A stretch of 64,000 nt of DNA from Coprinus comatus (lineage: Eukaryota > Basidiomycota > Agaricomycetes > Agaricales > Agaricaceae): contig JAWPGT010000037.1 in the NCBI GenBank assembly GCA_034638255.1, positions 62,001 through 126,000 of the forward strand. The letters run 5' to 3'. A program made the position numbers and the translations under genes. Shown here piece after piece: positions 14,768-44,987 of this stretch (positions are counted from its first letter, which is position 1; each line of letters starts with the position of its first letter). The notes below the pieces were generated by a model that was not told the origin of the DNA, searched no databases, and was given only the letters and a program-made list of their open reading frames with translations.

Positions 14768-15864
14768 ATGTTCATCCCAAAAATCTCCACATCAACAGAA
14801 CTTGAGAGGAGGCGTGTTTTGAAGAAGAAGAAAACAGGGAGAGGCAGCGGAAGTACCAGTTCGACTTCAGACAAAGAGAGTAGTAACAAAGGCTCCAATA
14901 TCTGTTTTTCTGGACAATGTAAAAAGGCGACACCATATAGTAATGGTGGTGGACCTACTACTACCATTCCTGCGGGACAACGTTTCTCCGGTCGATTGAT
15001 TGGTGGAGGTACACGGGAAGAAATTTATGGCAATAGGTATGTAGGTCATAGACTTCGAAAGTATTGTATTCAATTCTTTGATATGAAGTACCTACGGAAG
15101 CGGCTATGGTACGCATTGCTCATCTTGCCATGGTCCAGGTGTAAGAGGTCGACCATTCCCGTTTTACTTTTGGCCAATAGTATGGGGTGGAACATCTCTA
15201 GTTATTTTTGATTCCTATCTTGACTCCAACTCAGAGGTAAGCGCTTAACCGAAACCTCGGCACTCGTTCTTTTTTATTTCGATTCTGACGCTTGTTTATC
15301 CAGTATGGTGGAATTGACGATAGCGAAAGACCAGGCGGTTCTCTTTTCGTTACTTCACTCTCTTCTCCATCTACCAACACCATATTCCGTCTCATCTCGG
15401 ACAGTACAACCGTTAACGAGCTAGTCATCGATATCAGTACAGAATGTCAAATCGAATTGGGCAACAACACACCTCTCACTCCCATATCGTTGTTGGACTT
15501 TTCCGCCCAAACTTCTCCTAACGAGTTGGCAGCTCCTAGACCTGAACAAGCAGTTCAATATTATCGTGCAAGCTCGATCGTACTCACATTAGACGGGTAT
15601 AACAACTCCGCCACACATGCCATTGTTACTAATTCCCAGTCGGATATTAATAACTCACTCTTATTTCCACTGGAAGATTCTCCACTACCCCAGAATATTG
15701 ATCTCCAGCTTTTGACATGTTTGAATGAGACAATTGGGATGACTGCTCCTTTGATTGATTCCACTACTAGCAGTGGGTGCAATAGAGGGTTTTCGGATAT
15801 TGTACCTTCGTACTATAATTTGGTTTCTTTGGTTTTGTCGCTGTGGATGTTGATATATGACTAG
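14768..15864 (+). CDS. Gly-rich family orphan protein, copy 1 (325 aa)
   Basis: I do not recognise this family. Three exons (14768-15036, 15089-15236, 15304-15864) give 325 aa. Order of parts: basic Ser/Gly-rich N-terminus; block YSNGGGPTTTIPAGQRFSGR; TYGSGYG; GRPFPFYFWPIVWGG; YGGIDDSERPGGSLF; a polar region with VQYYRASSIVLTLDGYNNSA; CLNETIGMTAPLID; then a hydrophobic C-terminus (LVSLVLSLWMLIYD). It has no clear N-terminal signal peptide, so it may be tail-anchored, or the hydrophobic end may be a GPI-type signal. The start MFIPKIS is supported by the paralogue's MFVPGIS and a TATA box upstream. The second exon is 148 nt, the same as in copy 2, and intron positions match, so the two are true duplicates with marked protein divergence. 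Confidence 0.82.
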
Positions 15865-16989: not shown

Positions 16990-18068
16990 ATGTTTGTACC
17001 AGGTATCTCAGAACCGGAGAGACTCGAAAAGAGGAAGGGCGGTGGTCGCGGTGGAAAGGTCGGTAGCGGTGGTAGCGGTGGTGTTTCTCATTCAACAGCC
17101 TCTGGTGGTGGAACCCATAGCTATGGGGCAGCTCCTGTAGGTTTCCCTGGTGCCGGTACTCACTCCACAAGGTCATACAGTAATGGTGGAGGTCATACTT
17201 TTCCGATCCCCGCTGGTCAAGCTTTCAGTGGTCGACTAGTGGGGGGTGGAACACGGGGGGAAATTTATGGCAATAAGTGAGAGTTCTTTCTTATTTATTT
17301 ATTTTACCCCGGCGGCTCTAATTCGACTATGATCTTCTTAGGACGTACGGAAGTGGGTACGGGGAACAGTACCCCATGCCAATAGAACGTGGTGTGGCAG
17401 GTAGGCCATTCCCGTTTTACTTTTGGCCAGTCGTTTGGGGGGACAACAATAATCGGACTGTCGAGGCATATCTCAATGCCACACAAGAAGTGAGCACTAA
17501 CTTACCGTGTAATTACTAATTGCTTACTTACAATGATCTCGATTATCTTTACTAGTACGGTAGTGTCGATAACACGACAAGACCGGGTGGAATACTACTG
17601 AAAGTTCCACTCCGTTCCGGTAAATCTTCTAACACCAGCTTGGTGTTACTCGCAGACTTTGGAACCATCAGGTTCCTCATAACTGACATCGTCTATGAGT
17701 GTCATGAGCTACTTGGAGTTAGTGAAGACGACGTCAGGAAATTCAATGCGACACCGGTGAACTTTGACTTGACACCAATACCTCGACCAGAAGAGGTCAT
17801 ACAATACTACCGGGCATCATCAATAGCGCTCACTCTTGAGGGTTATAAAAACTCAGCTACACGTACGAATGTTTCCAATGGTAAAGAACCTCAAGATACT
17901 CCGATACCTGATTGGGTCGATATGAATCTCGTCACCTGCGTTAATGAGACCATTGGTACCGCGGCTCTATTAGTCGATGGTGGTCCTGGAATGCTTATGG
18001 CTATCCCTTCAAATTCTGGTTTGGTCTTTTTGGTTTTGGTTGTTTCGACTATCCTGAGAGTTGTTTGA
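16990..18068 (+). CDS. Gly-rich family orphan protein, copy 2 (315 aa)
   Basis: This is a paralogue of the gene at 14768 with the same three-exon plan (16990-17276, 17342-17489, 17556-18068), giving 315 aa. It has a longer Gly/Ser-rich N-terminus, then YSNGGGHTFPIPAGQAFSGR, LVGGGTRGEIYGNKTYGSGY, GVAGRPFPFYFWPVVWGD, YGSVDNTTRPGGILLKVP, VIQYYRASSIALTLEGYKNS, CVNETIGTAALLVDGGPGM and the hydrophobic end SGLVFLVLVVSTILRVV. Conservation of the WP-VWG block, RPGG, the RASSI-LTL-GY-NSAT block and C-NETIG between paralogues marks the likely functional core. Asn-X-Ser/Thr sites are present, which would suit an extracytoplasmic location if the protein enters the secretory pathway. Function unknown. Confidence 0.85.
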
Positions 18069-23172: not shown

Positions 23173-24865
23173 ATGCCCGCCTTCCGGTATCATAGCAGAA
23201 GACGCTCGTCCGTAGCCAAGCTTTGTACGTTTTTTTTTCCAATATCATTAACAACATATTCTTATTGCTTCAATAGCTTTTAACCCAGCAAAGCCTGGCA
23301 TCTATGGCATTGGTCTCCCGCCTCCTGCGGCCAAGCCAGTCACATTTGCTCCTAACGTTACTCCAGGAACTTATGTTGAGCCTGACGATGCCTTCGATGA
23401 AACTCTCTTACTGTCTTCCTCTCTCTTTCCTCCCTCGGAAATTCCTGCCCAGATGCAGTCACGTCGTCGAGTACCGCCCGGCAAGCGCCGTTCACAGGGT
23501 TACATTCCCCGGCCTCCAAATGCCTTCATGCTCTTCAGAGCAGATTTTGTCCGTCAGAAACATGTACCTGGCACCATTGAGACCAACCATGGATCCTTGT
23601 CTAAGATAATCGGTCAGTTTTTTGTTTCACGGCTTTTAACCTTATATCTAATCTTCTGAATTCTTATTTGGATAGGAAATTGCTGGAGAGCCCTTCCACT
23701 TGAGGAGAAGAAAGTTTGGGAAGTCAGGGCTAAGCACGCCAAGGCAGAGCACAAACTAAAATACCCAAACTATCGATTCCGCCCGGTGCATAACAAGAAC
23801 AAGGATAAAAAGAAGGATAAAACAATGCCAACCCCTGAGGATGAACGTAGATGTGAAGAAGTTGCTCAATTCCTGCTTGAAGGCAAGAAAGGTGAACAGT
23901 TGGCAGAAGCTGTTCGCAATTTGGACCGGATCCGTTCGCAAACTCCTGTTATTGCGCCAGCACCCGTTATGCAACATCGTCGCTCTTCGTCCGTGCCACT
24001 ACCCAATGACTATTACAATCCTTATGCAACTAACATCACACTGCCCACTACGTCATTCTTTTTGCAACCGATGCGACCTCCATCCCCATCTCGACAACAA
24101 CGAATTATGCATGGTCAACAGCAACGTCGTCCTTCTAGCGCTGGACCCACCTTTTTCCGTTCATGGAATACCTTGATGCATAACGACATATTTGAACAGG
24201 ATGAGACTATTACTCATTTCCCCGAGCCTGATCCATCGTTACTTCAAGACTTCAGCAATTTCAACTTTGCCTCTCCAGCTCAACAGACCCCACCTTTCGG
24301 TGTTAACGACTTGATGCCGACTTTACCCCCTCATGAAAACGTCCATGCGCATCAATTACATTTGGACCCCTTACAGTCACTCGGACCCCAGGACGTCCTC
24401 TCACACATGTATTCTGGTAGCGCACCAACTCCTTCTGATCAGAATTCGTTAGAGTCTAACAATAACTCGAATGAAATGCCGGATTTGGATGTGAATAATT
24501 GGCTATCTGGTGCTCTTGAACAAAGTCCATCTATTCCGTCATCACAGACCTCATCTTCCTACTCGGGCTCCCCTCCGCCTTCTGATAAAACTTTGCCACC
24601 TATGTTTGCTCCTCAACCCATCCACGCAGGACAGACACCAACAAGTCATATGTTCACCGGTATGGATAATCTAGGTGGAGTTGGAGTTGACGTTTGGGGT
24701 CAAACTGGTGTTGGGTATGGTCAACATGATCAACTCACTCAGTCGCTGTTCCAGCCCGAACACGGCGTCTGTGGGAATGGAGCTGACTCATACCCATATA
24801 TTGACCATGGATTTGATTTCGGCACAGGTAGTCAGATGGCCGAATATGCCAAACGGGAAGCATGA
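23173..24865 (+). CDS. HMG-box transcription factor (MATA_HMG type; PCC1/Prf1-like)
   Basis: This is a nuclear DNA-binding regulator of 525 aa in three exons: 23173-23224, 23277-23612 and 23676-24865. The start MPAFRYHSRRRSS follows a TATA box. The HMG box spans about residues 105-180: YIPRPPNAFMLFRADFVRQK, then SLSKIIGNCWRALPLEEKKV, then a basic tail HKLKYPNYRFRPVHNKNKDK. The second intron cuts the box at I-G, a usual place for these genes. PRPPNAF and YRFRP are the MATA/Ste11-type signature. The C-terminal 300 residues are Pro/Ser/Gln-rich with acidic patches, like an activation domain. Homologues in mushrooms (PCC1) and smuts (Prf1) act in sexual development and dikaryon control; that role here is inference. 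No mating-type homeodomain, receptor or lipopeptide pheromone gene was seen nearby. Confidence 0.92.
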
Positions 24866-29683: not shown

Positions 29684-29690
29684 TATATAA
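29684..29690 (+). promoter_or_regulatory. TATA box of the repeat-peptide precursor gene
   Basis: TATATAA about 90 bp upstream of the ATG at 29776, consistent with a short leader; it supports this being a real transcription unit. Confidence 0.55.
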
Positions 29691-29775: not shown

Positions 29776-30472
29776 ATGCGTACCGCTACATTTTTTGTTC
29801 TGTGTGCTTCATCATTAGCTGTCGCTGCGCCTGTGGTGTGTCCAGTTTAAAAATGGCCCTAAGACATGTTTTAAATGATGAGAATCTCCTTTCCTAGGCC
29901 AGCTCAAATAATGTCGATCGTGAGGCAGGAGTAAAAAGTTCGGCGAACTCAGAGGTTGGTACAATTTGAACGACTGCTCAATCGGATATTCATGCTAATG
30001 CCCGTTAATTCCTTCCAAGACTACTCCCCCTTGGAAACGCAATGATGGAACTCCTGGATGGAGGAAAGATGTCATTGCGGCACCAGGCTGGAAACGAGAT
30101 GATGCTGGTGCACCGGGATGGAAGCGAAACGACGCTGGTGCGCCGGGATGGAAGCGAAATGATGCTGGTCCACCCGGTTGGAAACGCGAGGACGCTGGTG
30201 CGCCTGGATGGAAGCGTGAAGAACTCGGTGCTCCTGGTTGGAGGCGTGAATCCGAGGAAGTCTCCTCCACACCACCGTGGAAGCGGGAGTCAAAAGGTAC
30301 TAGTACGCCTCCTTGGAAACGGGCTGAAGAAAAGGCGGCTACACCTCCCTGGAAGCGTACTGGGGAAAAGGTGACAACACCACCCTGGAAACGAACGGAA
30401 GATAACGTGGCGACACCACCCTGGAAGAGAGAGGCTAATACAGATTCCATTGAGCCAGCTGGTGGTTGGTAG
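29776..30472 (+). CDS. Secreted kexin-processed repeat peptide precursor (PGW-KR / PPW-KR)
   Basis: Three exons (29776-29835, 29898-29954, 30020-30472) code for 189 aa. Exon 1 is a complete signal peptide (MRTATFFVLCASSLAVAAPV). Exon 2 codes a short pro-segment (ASSNNVDREAG...). Exon 3 codes 13 units, each ending in Trp followed by two basic residues: one TTPPW-KR, one TPGW-RK, six of the APGW/PPGW class, then five TPPW-KR. The protein ends PAGGW, so every released peptide would end in Trp. Spacers are acidic (NDAG, DDAG, EDAG, EEL, ESEE). This is the plan of fungal kexin-processed repeat proteins such as alpha-factor precursors and dikaritin precursors. It has no Tyr in the units, no Cys and no CaaX box, so it is neither a Tyr-based dikaritin nor a farnesylated mating pheromone. 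Both introns are 62-65 bp and the first two exons end in phase 0. Exon 3 has no ATG in frame. No modifying enzyme lies nearby. The function is unknown; the gene model is inferred from splice sites and repeat logic. Confidence 0.85.
30020..30430 (+). repeat. Degenerate coding tandem repeats of the peptide precursor
   Basis: Units of 24-39 nt centred on CC-GG-TGG-AAR-CGN. The first block (about 30047-30247) has short PGW units, the second (about 30250-30430) longer PPW units. Third-position changes (AAA/AAG, CGA/CGC/CGT/CGG/AGA) with constant Trp-Lys-Arg point to selection on the peptide. Confidence 0.85.
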
Positions 30473-32224
30473 TTGATGTACGACGGCGAATAGGTTCTGG
30501 TGAAAGATTATGGACGTGAAGGACGTTTGTATCTACCTTAGTAGGCTGAGCTCTGCATGGACCTTAAAACTCGTTGTTGTCTTTCTGCCTTCAATCCACA
30601 AATCACCAGATCTCCAGAGTGTGGTGTGATTATTTGTTCCTTTAAATACGATTTGACCATTTTGTATCTTCGTTTAGTGACTAATTGTATGTCTTTAACA
30701 ATGAAAATCGGAGACTGTTCACCTTTCATAGCTAATTTGAGTAATAGTCGACAGGAGCTACGGAGAGCGGACTTACCCTCAGTAACGGTCACGAATGCCC
30801 TGAATTTCAATAGAAGCAAAAAGAACGCAAGAGATAAAATTATCGATCCTAAAAATTGCAAGTTCGGTCTGGTGATCAAGCGCCTTAAATGTTAAGGTTG
30901 AGAAACTGGAGATGTTCATGTGGTTATGCTCACATGCTTTCGGAACTATGAGGGGTATAATGCGTCAGTGGATAACGTTTCCGCACGTTCCAGAATTATA
31001 CCAAGCCAGCTTGGGTCGTCATTACTGAATTGGTTAACATCTTCCTTAGTATATTGCAACGTGCCAGAACCTGGGGTTAATTTTGTGATGGACCTTACCT
31101 TAGCGATATACCCCTCTTCTATTGCTATTGGTGGAACTGGGCCTTGATCTTTGTAGCGTGTGGCGGTTCCGCTTTCGCGCGTCCTGGGAGAGGTATGCCA
31201 AAATTATGGGATGCAGATTTCGATTGGGTGCTAGAATTCACAGCGGGGATCAATGGAACGATAGATAAACTCATAATACTGAGAATAGCGGTCCGTAGGC
31301 TGCATTAAGTTGTAGTTTTAGTAAACCGTTTTTCTCTTTAGACAGTTAAGCACCACTCACGTTTTTTGTACTTTGCAAACAAGCGGAAAACACGTTGTGA
31401 ATGACTAGCAGCCCGTGAGACTTTACACGTGAACCTCTCGGCAACTCGCGTGTCAACTCGAATTCAAACGAAAGTACGTTATTTCATGATTTGGCTATCC
31501 TACGGAGGATCACCTTTATACAAGTGCATTTATTGACTGGGAGATAATTTCATAGCACTAATAGCATGTGTGTAAATCGTAAGCGTCGTCGAGCCGACGG
31601 TTGTCTACCAAGGTGATAATAGATGTCGCTACCGTTTATGCATAGTTTTACTATATTACCGCTGAGGATGGCAAATACTTGCCAAGAAAGTCACGACTCA
31701 CTGGTCCATTGTAAGAAGACTGAATGTGTGACAACTATCTTTGTTATCTATAAGGCTTAGCATATACTTCGCTAGATCTTTTCCGGGATATCGATCTGTG
31801 AATACTATAGCATGGCATCTTGTCTGTAACTCTACAATGTTCGAACGTTCACTACAAGCTTCTACAAAGAGGCTTCCGTCGCCTTCCTTGTTTTCTCATT
31901 CTATTTTCTGTGTACGCAAACGCTGACACAAGTCAAATCGGACATATTCAATCCACTCCAAGGGACCATCAGGGAATGCGGCAAGCGTATACACAATCGG
32001 TTCTCGAGAATGAAGAGGAATTAAAGCGGACTTTGATGATTCAGTGTTAAGATGGTTAGAGTTTACCGATGACCAGGAACTATCGCTCGACACTGGCAAA
32101 AGCGTTTCCGCGATAAGTACTTGTTATTTTTTGATATTTTTCCACGTTATTTTTTCCGAATTACCCGATGCGGCAAGATGCGATGAGGCCCTTGACTAGG
32201 CAGAGATTGTCGTCATTGAAGACG
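30473..32224. other. Intergenic region between peptide precursor and dihydrofolate synthase
   Basis: No gene supported. A minus-strand frame at 30538-30879 begins with a hydrophobic run after an ATG (MITRPNLQFLGSIILS), but it has no other support and lies in the 3' flank of the peptide gene. Confidence 0.45.
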
Positions 32225-40597: not shown

Positions 40598-40986
40598 CTT
40601 TGTGTTTGAGCGATTTTCTTCTTTCTACGATCTGAATGTAAACTGTTAAAGAAAATGGAAGACTCAAGAGACTGCAGTACTCACTTGAGCGTAAAAAATT
40701 TCGGGGTCAATGGTTTCCGCCACTTGATACGGGGCGTTCGTGGACGTTCCGGTGCCACTCCAATGAGGACGGTCCTATTGTGTATATGTGTGTGTACATC
40801 AGTCAGTATTAGCACTAGGGAGGAATGCGATAGAAAGCTTACCGGAACCATTTTTCGCGATTTTCCACCATGATTGTGCTTGCATAGGCGGCATTGTTTG
40901 TTCTATGTTTTAAAATAGCATTTAGAGTTATAGCAGATGAGGAATAACATGTCCGTACAATGGGTGCCAATGTACAAATATAATGG
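40598..40986. repeat. Left arm of a ~390 bp inverted repeat
   Basis: This arm is the reverse complement of 44594-44987, roughly 90% identical by eye, with small indels. Read on the minus strand it resembles two exons of a gene: an ATG-led segment (MPPMQAQSWWKIAKNGS), GTAAGC donor, ACACAATAG acceptor, a 90-nt segment, then GTGAGT donor. The protein of the second segment is open in more than one frame, so I cannot assign it. Confidence 0.85.
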
Positions 40987-43900
40987 CCATTGCGGAGAGC
41001 CGAAGAATGTTAAAAAATATGTTAAATAGTAGGTAGAGGGTTCGAAGGGGAGTAAATAAATTTTGTTAGGTCGTTCTGTCGAACGCTAAATTTACACGTG
41101 ATGCCCACCAAAGTTTCAACAACTTGGCTTTCCACCACATACCACCGTCGAGTGTGGTCGATAAATTCACTGGACACCTAAACTTGCTTCCTGTACCGGC
41201 AGGATGCTCCCAAGCAAAGTTTCTACGAATGTATGTCACTCATCACCTTTCAAGTGCATTGTCCTCACCCTCTACCATATTCTACAGACTTACTGGTGTC
41301 CACAGTGTTATCAGACACCTACTAAGGTTAATGACCAGCTTGAATATACACGACGTTATACGCCCACTAGTCCACGTTAATCCCTTGAAAACAATTTCGT
41401 CGAGTCCTCTACGAAGTTGTGTTTCGAACACAATTCCTCGGCCCTTCCATTCCATGAATCAAGTGCAGTGGTTGCCTCTCCATCGCCCTTTATTCTGAGA
41501 CATGCGGGTATCTCGACCGGCTTCGACAACCCCCTTTAACCGAGGTGACTTTTGCACACTAGATGTTATATTTAGCGTGAAGGACCTCAAAAATACCGGG
41601 CTGTACTTCACCTCATTTCTCCCACCGTTTAACAGCCATTCCTATTGTCCTCCTACTCGACGCGTGGCTTGTGATAGATCAACGTTGATTTCACTCGCGA
41701 TGAATAGTCCTAGGTTAGAGCGGGTGGAAGAAAGCAGAAAGGGTCAGTCACTGCTTCATACCAATATTGCAGCCTAGCCGCTAAACCACGGAAGATCAGA
41801 CTGTTGTTGCTGCGCACCGGGCGTGTACCATTGCGAACGACAAAGGGTTTGGTGTCAACTCTCCATCCTTGTGACGGTCTATTCCACCAACGTCGGATGC
41901 CCTATTTTCCATTAGTAGCCTGAACTTCTACCCAAATTGATTCTTGGCTTGCTTTCCAGCCCGACCGGACCTGTTGAGTATTGGAAGAATACCCAGTCTT
42001 TCCACCACCAGATTGTTCAGCCATAAACGACAAGGCAATCGTAAGCTGCAAACTATCCTTCCTAGAGCTTGTGGATTACAAAGGTAAGCAGTGAAACGTC
42101 GCAAGGCACAAGTGCTATTACTGAGAGTGAGAATTTAGGCTCTAGACAACAATACTTATGGACAGGGAGTTAAAGAGTCAAGCCCGAGAATTGGAGTCGT
42201 TTTCATCTCTGCACCAAGGCCCAAGGTTGGAACATTCAACAAGCCGCGTTCAGCTGTCCAGTAGTCTTAGCGTTCAAGTTGCGATGGTCCTCTTCATACA
42301 TATACCAATTCATGCATCCCGATCAGCGCCAAAGCATGTTACGCGACCAATGGACCCAAACGAATCAGGAGACGGTGTCGACTATCCACGACGGACGTCG
42401 GAAACACCCTTCTCCTCCACAAGGTCCGAATAAACTGTAAAAGTATTAATCCCAACGGGTGATCATGGTGATGCTATTGTGTAGCGTGCAGCTTATTCAA
42501 GTAACGAAATGATCTCGACGCTCATGAAATGGATACCAAGGAAAGCTGGAGAAGTAGGTGTTCTTGGTTATGGAAGTAGCTTGTGTTTGGGATCGCCTAG
42601 TTGCACTGGCAGGTTGATGACCGCCACATGTGACAGTCCATTCAAAAAGGTGATATGACTCATTTCGTTACAACCAAACACCCTACTCCTTGCCGACTCC
42701 GACAAGGCCTCCTGGATACATTTCAAGTGGTTAGTACGTCTGCGTTCGGAATCCGGATTGGAGCATGGTTTTGGGTAATAGAATGGAAATCGGGGAATGC
42801 AATTTACTCAAGGTTCGTTCATTTCAACCTTCTTATTTGTGTGTTTTATCAACATTCACGGTATTTTATAGAACAAAGAAAACTATAAGAACGGCATGTT
42901 ACCAAAAACGTGTACTGTGCGCGTAATTTAACCATCAAACGACCATAATCTATGCGTCATTTATGAACTGGATTAGGAATTATCCTCAGCAACGTTTTTG
43001 AATGAACTTATGACAAACTGGCATGTCATTGTTTTCTTCAAAACGCCTTTTTTCTTAACATATTTAGTTGTGTCTAGTATCCTTCCGGCAGCATAATCAT
43101 ATAGTTACAATGCTATATGGCGTCTTAATATTGAGAGCGATAGGACAATTAGGAGTGGTCAGGTTATTAACCTGGAACACCAACAAGAGCATGGTCTCCT
43201 TACGCGGGATCGACTTAAACTGACTCCGCAGCTTCAGCTGTGAATGAGGTCAAGGTGACGAAAAATATGGAGTTTAAGTTCAACATTCACCCTCTAGTCC
43301 ATGCTTCCCGGTGGTAGTGCGCAATGATTCAGATTAGGCAGAGGTGAAGGTAAAAGGATAAGGACTAAATTCAAAGAACCAGTACTCTTGGGATGACGGA
43401 TACTAGAACTTCAGTGACTTCATTCTACGGCAATGTTAATATGTTACATCCTCGAGGCTACGATTATCAGTGGTCCAAACACCGCACTGCGGCCTCAGAG
43501 CGTTGTCCGACTATTCTATTTTAATCTGGACTTTATGGCCATATTGGGTAGGGGACTGGTATGAGTATGATTGGCTTACCTTTCCGGGTGGTTGAGGAAC
43601 AAGATCTGGAGGAACTGTGGTCACGCCGGATATCACCGGGATCAGCATCAATCTCTATTAATAAGTGATTGGTCCAAAATTCAAATTGCCACAAAACCTC
43701 ACTTAAAAGAGAGGGTCACTGCATCCCCGCAACTTTCCGATTCTAGATGAACTTTTATTCCTACTTTTTTATATTACCATAAGCCTTTATATCGCTTAGT
43801 ACCTGGATAACGCTTACTGCAAATTGCTTTGTCTTTCCCATTTATCACTGAAACAACAGCCACAACAACGGTAATAATAATAACAAAACAATAACACATT

Positions 43901-44593
43901 CATTTCTTTCAACCCCAACAGTTAAGGAACAATGTAAGTTGCATAAAATCGCAATAGGACTGACAACCCGGGGTTCAACGTTCAGTCCGGAAAATTGAGA
44001 TGTGATGACAACATTACTTTGTCCCAATGAGAAACACAAGACCTCGCGGTATCCTGATTATTTGACATTTGCAGAAGGTTCCACCAGTCTGAGAGAACAG
44101 TCTTCTACATATAAGGATTCCTTTGGCCTACTAACCCTTGTTATGATAATCACCTGGACATCGTATCATGTGTCCTATGATGATTGCTTTGTGATAATAC
44201 CGGTGCTTTGTATTATTCGTTGTATCGATTTATTTCAATGACCTCACCATGGTTGCCACTGCTGATAAGAGTAATACAAGATACAAGTGCGGGAGTATTT
44301 AATCGGTGTACGCTTCATACAGAATCACTAGTCAATATTCACTATTATTCCTCCGACGCACAAACTACTTTCTTGCTAGTACTACAGCTTTCGTAAATGA
44401 ATTGGATTACCCCACGAAATATTGTGCTGAACACAATGATTAAATTTCACTTAGAAGAAAGTCCATGGTAGGGTAAGCCTCAATCTCCTAATATCACATT
44501 TGTCTACGACATTGAACGATCGTGTTAGTGATATTGAACCCAGACATAACTTGTAAGCAACATCATTGAACTTAATTTCAAGTCTCCACAATA
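40987..44593. other. 3.6 kb loop between inverted repeat arms
   Basis: No transposase, reverse transcriptase or other gene is recognisable. Short frames near 41124-41777 and 42158-42433 lack domain features. The loop could be a degenerate non-autonomous element or simply sequence between two independent insertions. Confidence 0.45.
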
Positions 44594-44987
44594 ACCATTA
44601 GGTTTGTACATTGGCACTCATTGTACGGATATGTTCTTCCTCATACACTATGATTCTAACTTGAAATGCTATTTTAAAGCATAGAACAAGCAATGTCACC
44701 TATGCAAACACAATCATGGTGGAAAATCGCGAAAAATGGCTCCGGTAAGCTTCTATCGCATTCCTCCCTAGTGCTAATACTGACTGATGTACACACACAC
44801 ATACACAATAGGACCGTCCTCATTGGAGTGGCACCGGAACGTCCACAAACGTCCCGTGTCAAGTGGCGGAAATCATTGACCCTGAAATTTTTTACGCTCA
44901 GTGAGTACTGCAGTCTCTTGAGCCTTCTATTTTCTTTAACAGCTTACATTCAGATCGTAGAAAGAAGCAAATCGCTCAAACACAAAG
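44594..44987. repeat. Right arm of the ~390 bp inverted repeat
   Basis: Reverse complement of 40598-40986. On the plus strand it runs in the same exon-like order as the left arm on the minus strand and leads directly into the Gly-rich family pseudogene. Just after its end, GCATTCCTCC..AG..CTAATA..CACAC (45009-45034) repeats a piece of its own first intron-like segment. Confidence 0.85.

Follow-up and report, generated by a model that had tools for sequence, protein, structure and literature searches.

A small spliced gene at positions 29776-30472 (+) of the window (C37:62001-126000, a stretch of 64,000 nucleotides with 41.6% G+C, from a Coprinus comatus genome of 35.7 Mb in 134 contigs) is, as judged from its sequence, a new member of the KEX2-processed repeat proteins (KEPs), with cores ending in Pro-x-Trp. 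It is almost certainly a precursor of Trp-ending peptides. The gene is well supported and apparently was not annotated before; small spliced genes of this kind are easily overlooked by annotation.

The three exons join into a frame of 570 nt that encodes 189 aa and a stop codon, all on the forward strand. Exon 1 (29776-29835) carries the start codon and the signal peptide MRTATFFVLCASSLAVAAPV, which by eye has a hydrophobic N-terminus and an AAPV end; signal-peptide cleavage probably takes place around VAA-PV. A TATATA box, found by pattern only, is located at 29684-29689 (+), with 86 bases between the box and the start codon. Exon 2 (29898-29954) encodes a pro-region of 19 residues and is flanked by two phase-0 introns: intron 1 (29836-29897; 62 nt, GTGTGT...CCTAG) and intron 2 (29955-30019; 65 nt, GTTGGT...CCAAG). 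The frame stays open across both joins. A CTAAT branch-point-like motif begins 25 nt upstream of the end of intron 2, and a pattern search for CTRAY found no such motif in intron 1. The splicing is a prediction, based on the sequence and on the matching plan of a paralogue described below. Exon 3 (30020-30472) contains 13 unit ends of the form P[GP]W followed by a dibasic site. The first, TTPPW-KR (30020-30040), completes a unit whose N-terminal part is encoded on exon 2. Units 2-8 (30041-30247) read NDGTPGW, DVIAAPGW, DDAGAPGW, NDAGAPGW, NDAGPPGW, EDAGAPGW, and EELGAPGW, and units 9-13 (30248-30430) read ESEEVSSTPPW, ESKGTSTPPW, AEEKAATPPW, TGEKVTTPPW, and TEDNVATPPW, each with its dibasic site. 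The C-terminal peptide EANTDSIEPAGGW and the stop codon TAG occupy 30431-30472, so that the protein ends naturally in Trp (...EPAGGW). Trp precedes all 13 dibasic sites (11 KR, one RR, and one RK), the signal peptide contains the only Cys, and the 189-aa protein has no Tyr. The preliminary description of this DNA had proposed for exon 1 a complete signal peptide, followed by a pair of short phase-0 introns, 13 units ending in Trp plus KR, RK or RR, and a natural C-terminal Trp, and the sequence analysis agrees with each of these features.

The repeat ORF is not a chance product. When the window was simulated 100 times each with order-1 and order-2 Markov models and PxW[KR][KR] was counted per ORF, the maximum in the 200 simulated windows was 1 versus 13 in the real frame. 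Over the common 21-nt blocks of the aligned repeats, the coding frame had a pN/pS of 0.286 and the other five frames had values of 0.417, 1.217, 1.358, 1.455, and 3.738; the value of 0.417, also below 1, belongs to a reverse frame and is weaker than that of the coding frame. By the Nei-Gojobori method, with two shorter units left out, six PGW units had a dN of 0.191 and a dS of 1.805, and five PPW units a dN of 0.359 and a dS of 2.921; in both sets dS approaches saturation. When each of the 13 units was included with its final six codons, pN was 0.171 and dS was infinite. Pairwise differences at codon positions 1, 2, and 3 amounted to 27.5, 21.6, and 58.1%, respectively, and the almost invariant Pro at -2 and second basic residue use four and six codons, respectively. 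The units are thus constrained at the protein level, which favours a working gene; the antisense ORF at 29995-30507 and the other frames were ruled out by the frame-specific constraint. It might still be argued that the locus is not a working precursor at all, and represents another kind of GW/WG-repeat protein, a relic, or an unexpressed frame. The Pfam model RDM3_C does match the protein at 28.9 bits; the curated cut-off is 35, and we took this match as composition and rejected a GW/WG-repeat protein. The signal peptide, the dibasic site after every internal Trp, a dN well under dS between units, and a plan shared with the paralogue and with relatives make a non-precursor extremely unlikely.

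The same genome contains a second gene of this type on contig C22 (34573-34984, corresponding to L009:4574-4985). Its best model encodes 96 aa and has a signal peptide that ends in AAPV and two phase-0 introns (GTATGT...TAG and GTACGT...TAG) at positions that correspond to those of the window gene. All five units are on the last exon, with one GAPGW core and four YPPGW cores; Tyr is therefore present in 4/5 cores. A triple Trp-Lys-Arg pattern gave nine matches in the whole genome, six in the window gene and three in the C22 gene, and the reversed-pattern control gave none. A protein query of the genome found the same two genes only. A triple Trp-Arg pattern matched the genome three times, always in a Gly/Glu-rich repeat on C1 (control: four), and a looser double pattern remained under the control level (25 vs. 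37 matches) and so was uninformative; these pattern searches could overlook KEPs with only one or two such units. A tRNA-synthetase-like ORF, recognised by eye, is found close to the paralogue.

Protein searches yielded 14 relatives beyond the two genes of this genome. The family thus counts 16 members here and may exceed that number, as the profile search scored only the 7996 candidates sharing most words. Three relatives are weak (P0010, E 3.6e-4; P0011, E 4.9e-3; P0014, E 1.3e-3). The organism is named for 11 of the 14 (all but P0002, P0010, and P0012), and all are Agaricomycetes: Hebeloma, Mycena (two), Leucocoprinus, Rhizoctonia (three), Volvariella, Favolaschia, Lyophyllum, and Arthromyces. 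P0005-P0007 are near copies, close Rhizoctonia sequences named partial, that were kept in the counts; P0002 is close to P0001 and both were counted. Pro occupies -2 in 93 of the 94 Trp-dibasic units of the 16 proteins, a proportion inflated by the collection of relatives through shared 5-residue words. Less exposed to this bias is the C-terminal Trp present in 10/16 proteins, a count that includes the three Rhizoctonia near copies. Six of these ten C-termini read Pro-x-Trp and four have no Pro at -2 (...GGW in the window protein and ...SDW in the three Rhizoctonia sequences). These natural C-terminal Trp residues support a free C-terminal Trp on the predicted peptides. AAP[VI] was found within the first 45 residues of the C22 paralogue and 4/14 relatives. 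GAPGW, itself among the searched words, is present in five of the 16 (window protein, paralogue, Leucocoprinus, Favolaschia, and Lyophyllum). No annotated copy of the window protein was among the search results, and the gene looks unannotated in the searched protein database.

The preliminary description had regarded the gene as encoding a secreted kexin-type repeat precursor, which the signal peptide and the 13 Trp-dibasic units bear out, and had in addition proposed a peptide family of its own. The latter proposal was not upheld. KEPs have already been established as a class (PMC6339444, PMC7329392), reported to number 7878 in 1345 of 1461 strains (PMC7329392) and described as widespread among fungi with largely unknown functions (PMC9769878); basidiomycete KEPs with C-terminal Trp have already been reported and linear products detected (PMC9769878). 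The window protein has a KEP signal peptide (by eye) and internal repeats parted by dibasic Kex2 sites, and a kexin gene in the same genome is a supporting feature. This kexin (L034, on C5) contains an S8 stretch with E 1.1e-71 to PDB Kexin and matches Peptidase_S8 at 85 bits; the P-domain model gave no match genome-wide, scoring 14 bits in the L034 ORF, which is under the cut-off. DPPIV_N matched two stretches on C7, an assignment at the family level.

The closest parallels come from the work of Vogt et al. (2022), in which mass spectrometry is reported to have detected linear QYKAPSW and QMRPPSW after Pichia expression, GPPAPSW in Coprinopsis culture fluid, and the linear, Trp-ending peptides SGTGEASAADW in Lentinula and SGVAADW in Pleurotus (PMC9769878). 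The detection of such similar agaricomycete peptides supports the linear-peptide reading of the window gene. Like the window gene, Coprinopsis cinerea KEP 490115 and KEP 447393 are described as secreted dibasic repeat precursors with Pro-x-Trp linear cores; in a comparison by core peptides alone, their cores have Ser at -1 whereas those of the window gene have Gly or Pro. KEP 490115 is further described as using RR and Ste13 motifs, and the window gene has no Ste13 motifs. A BLAST search with KEP 490115 is reported to have found many other basidiomycete KEPs that carry Ste13 motifs and whose cores end in Trp (PMC9769878). Within open-access main text, outside of which lie supplements such as figure S10 of Vogt et al., APGWKR, TPPWKR, and YPPGWKR were absent from 5.39 million papers and GAPGW was found only in three that by title concern other subjects. 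The Pro-x-Trp sub-kind with GAPGW, YPPGW, and TPPW cores seems to be undescribed in open-access main text.

DPPIV enzymes take off X-Ala and X-Pro dipeptides and halt once Pro is the following residue. We computed trimming by a script with this stop-before-Pro rule. In the C22 paralogue, where Ste13-type EA/VP/AP ladders precede YPPGW and GAPGW, each of the four Trp units that follow the first would be shortened to GAPGW or YPPGW. In the window gene 0/12 units after the first carry a ladder, and only the C-terminal peptide starts with Glu-Ala. Some units of P0011, P0012, P0013, and P0014 trim to a pentapeptide by the same rule; it gave no pentapeptide in the other 10 of the 14 relatives. Basidiomycete KEPs with alpha-pheromone-like Ste13 signatures were described by Le Marquer et al. 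(2019), who proposed that they are hormones or effectors (PMC6339444); the C22 paralogue shares the EA/VP/AP ladders of that group whereas the window-gene units do not. Lacking a Ste13 ladder, the window gene is not of the alpha-pheromone type by the X-Ala/X-Pro criterion. Ascomycete alpha-pheromone precursors share the signal peptide and the Kex2 units with the window gene, and some are reported to end in Trp (PMC6339444), but their core differs from the window cores. No STE2 match was found in this genome, and the control genomes were silent as well.

Three known peptide classes had been set aside in the preliminary description, and the present results agree. A CaaX lipopeptide pheromone is excluded by sequence, as the protein ends in AGGW and has a signal peptide, with its only Cys therein. 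Molluscan APGWamide precursors share APGW followed by Lys-Arg with the window gene. Amidation needs a Gly that separates Trp from the basic pair, and in 13/13 units of the window protein Trp is directly followed by Lys or Arg, with no Gly donor; this feature and the natural Trp C-terminus in 10/16 members led us to reject an APGWamide precursor. Dikaritins of the ustiloxin type also derive from a Kex2-cut repeat precursor, with Tyr cores as in the paralogue and unlike the window gene. We found 11 UstYa (DUF3328) stretches in the genome, on C1, C3, C9, and C31, and none on C37 or C22, which makes a dikaritin unlikely; this candidate was set aside for the lack of Tyr in the window protein and of UstYa on either contig, even though the paralogue does have Tyr in most cores.

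A broader reading would make the gene a RiPP precursor whose cores undergo cyclisation or some other modification prior to release. The precursor plan shared with dikaritins, the UstYa-family genes in the genome, and the Tyr-containing cores of the paralogue are compatible with such a pathway, and a DUF3328 gene is reported near 17 of 76 KEPs resembling putative basidiomycete pheromones (PMC7329392). Set against these points are the 0/11 UstYa stretches on the two relevant contigs, the Tyr-free window protein, and the linear form reported for similar peptides in other agaricomycetes (PMC9769878). In addition, a Pfam scan of 15 window ORFs gave matches for seven, none of them to a peptide-modifying family, and no biosynthetic cluster was seen among the ORFs scanned. 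We consider modified cores very unlikely and prefer unmodified linear peptides.

Closest to the window gene, the Pfam matches indicate an HMG-box protein, a protein of the Mur-ligase type, which we take to be folylpolyglutamate-synthase-like, and a carboxylesterase. The HMG-box gene (23252-24865, +; PF00505, 25.9 bits) precedes the peptide gene by ∼5 kb. Two neighbouring ORFs without Pfam match (15289-15864 and 17556-18068, +) have by eye a common QYYRASSI.LTL.GY.NSAT stretch and are perhaps a tandem duplication. An inverted pair of ∼400 bp (40598-40998 and 44583-44987) is 83-96% complementary in four pieces, with inner ends 3.6 kb apart; its members may be two copies or mark the ends of a mobile element. 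Elsewhere in the genome, 19 of 25 STE3-type receptor stretches are clustered on C8 at ∼445-496 kb, as expected of an agaricomycete B mating-type locus, and there are 19 OPT-family stretches.

From the observed gene structure, constraint, paralogue, relatives, and kexin and DPPIV-family genes of this genome, we infer the following path of processing and secretion. The signal peptide would route the window precursor into the secretory pathway, Kex2 would cleave after every dibasic site, and Kex1 would strip both basic residues and halt at Trp. Secretion would then yield about 13-14 linear peptides, several variants from one precursor, each with a free C-terminal Trp; those from units 2-13 would be 7-11 residues long, the last 13 residues, and the first longer. 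The peptides of the C22 paralogue would also be trimmed N-terminally to about GAPGW and YPPGW. We hold a precursor processed into linear peptides to be highly probable. Structural cell-surface peptides like the Ustilago Rep1 repellents could likewise be cut by Kex2 from a basidiomycete repeat precursor, but Rep1 peptides are given as 37 residues (PMC6339444) versus 7-13 here, mostly polar by eye, and a structural role is highly improbable.

By analogy with alpha-pheromones and Cryptococcus Qsp1, the secreted peptides would most likely act as a signal, in hyphal self-sensing or in dialogue with neighbours, through a receptor or an importer. We find the case for signalling in the producer alone evenly balanced. 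Qsp1 is described as a secreted 11-mer ending in Pro-Trp that acts on its producer and is imported through Opt1 (PMC7537855, PMC5959073). The likeness, by description, consists in a secreted basidiomycete peptide ending in Pro-Trp and in the OPT-family matches of this genome; on the other hand, Qsp1 is reported to be matured extracellularly by Pqp1, and the descriptions in these sources contain no repeated Trp-dibasic plan (PMC7537855, PMC5959073). Single knockouts of six kep genes of Coprinopsis are reported to have no visible phenotype (PMC9769878). This result, together with the biotic-interaction view of its authors, does not favour an essential self-signal. The same precursor might instead supply peptides for defence or biotic interaction with bacteria, other fungi, animals, or plants, and not for the producer, a possible use to which we give clearly less weight. 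The release of several sequence variants from one precursor would suit this use, and the authors of PMC9769878 favour it from the absence of an axenic phenotype in their knockouts; however, the synthetic peptides of that study are reported as without antibacterial activity on five strains (PMC9769878), and the units are by eye acidic or neutral, unlike cationic antimicrobial peptides.

Beyond signalling by this one gene, the Pro-x-Trp KEPs could form one old Agaricomycete peptide-hormone family, in which two processing styles, with and without Ste13 ladders and both present in this genome, converge on a common C-terminal pentapeptide such as GAPGW that is perceived by a single conserved receptor or importer of oligopeptides. 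We put this forward as a doubtful proposition. If true, it would mean that mushrooms possess a Trp-peptide self-sensing system, comparable to Cryptococcus Qsp1, that runs parallel to the lipopeptide pheromones and does not depend on them. Two precursors in one genome with a common core end and different N-terminal processing, whose relatives range from Agaricales to Rhizoctonia, provide a defined peptide set, which allows testing for a mushroom peptide hormone apart from the mating pheromones.
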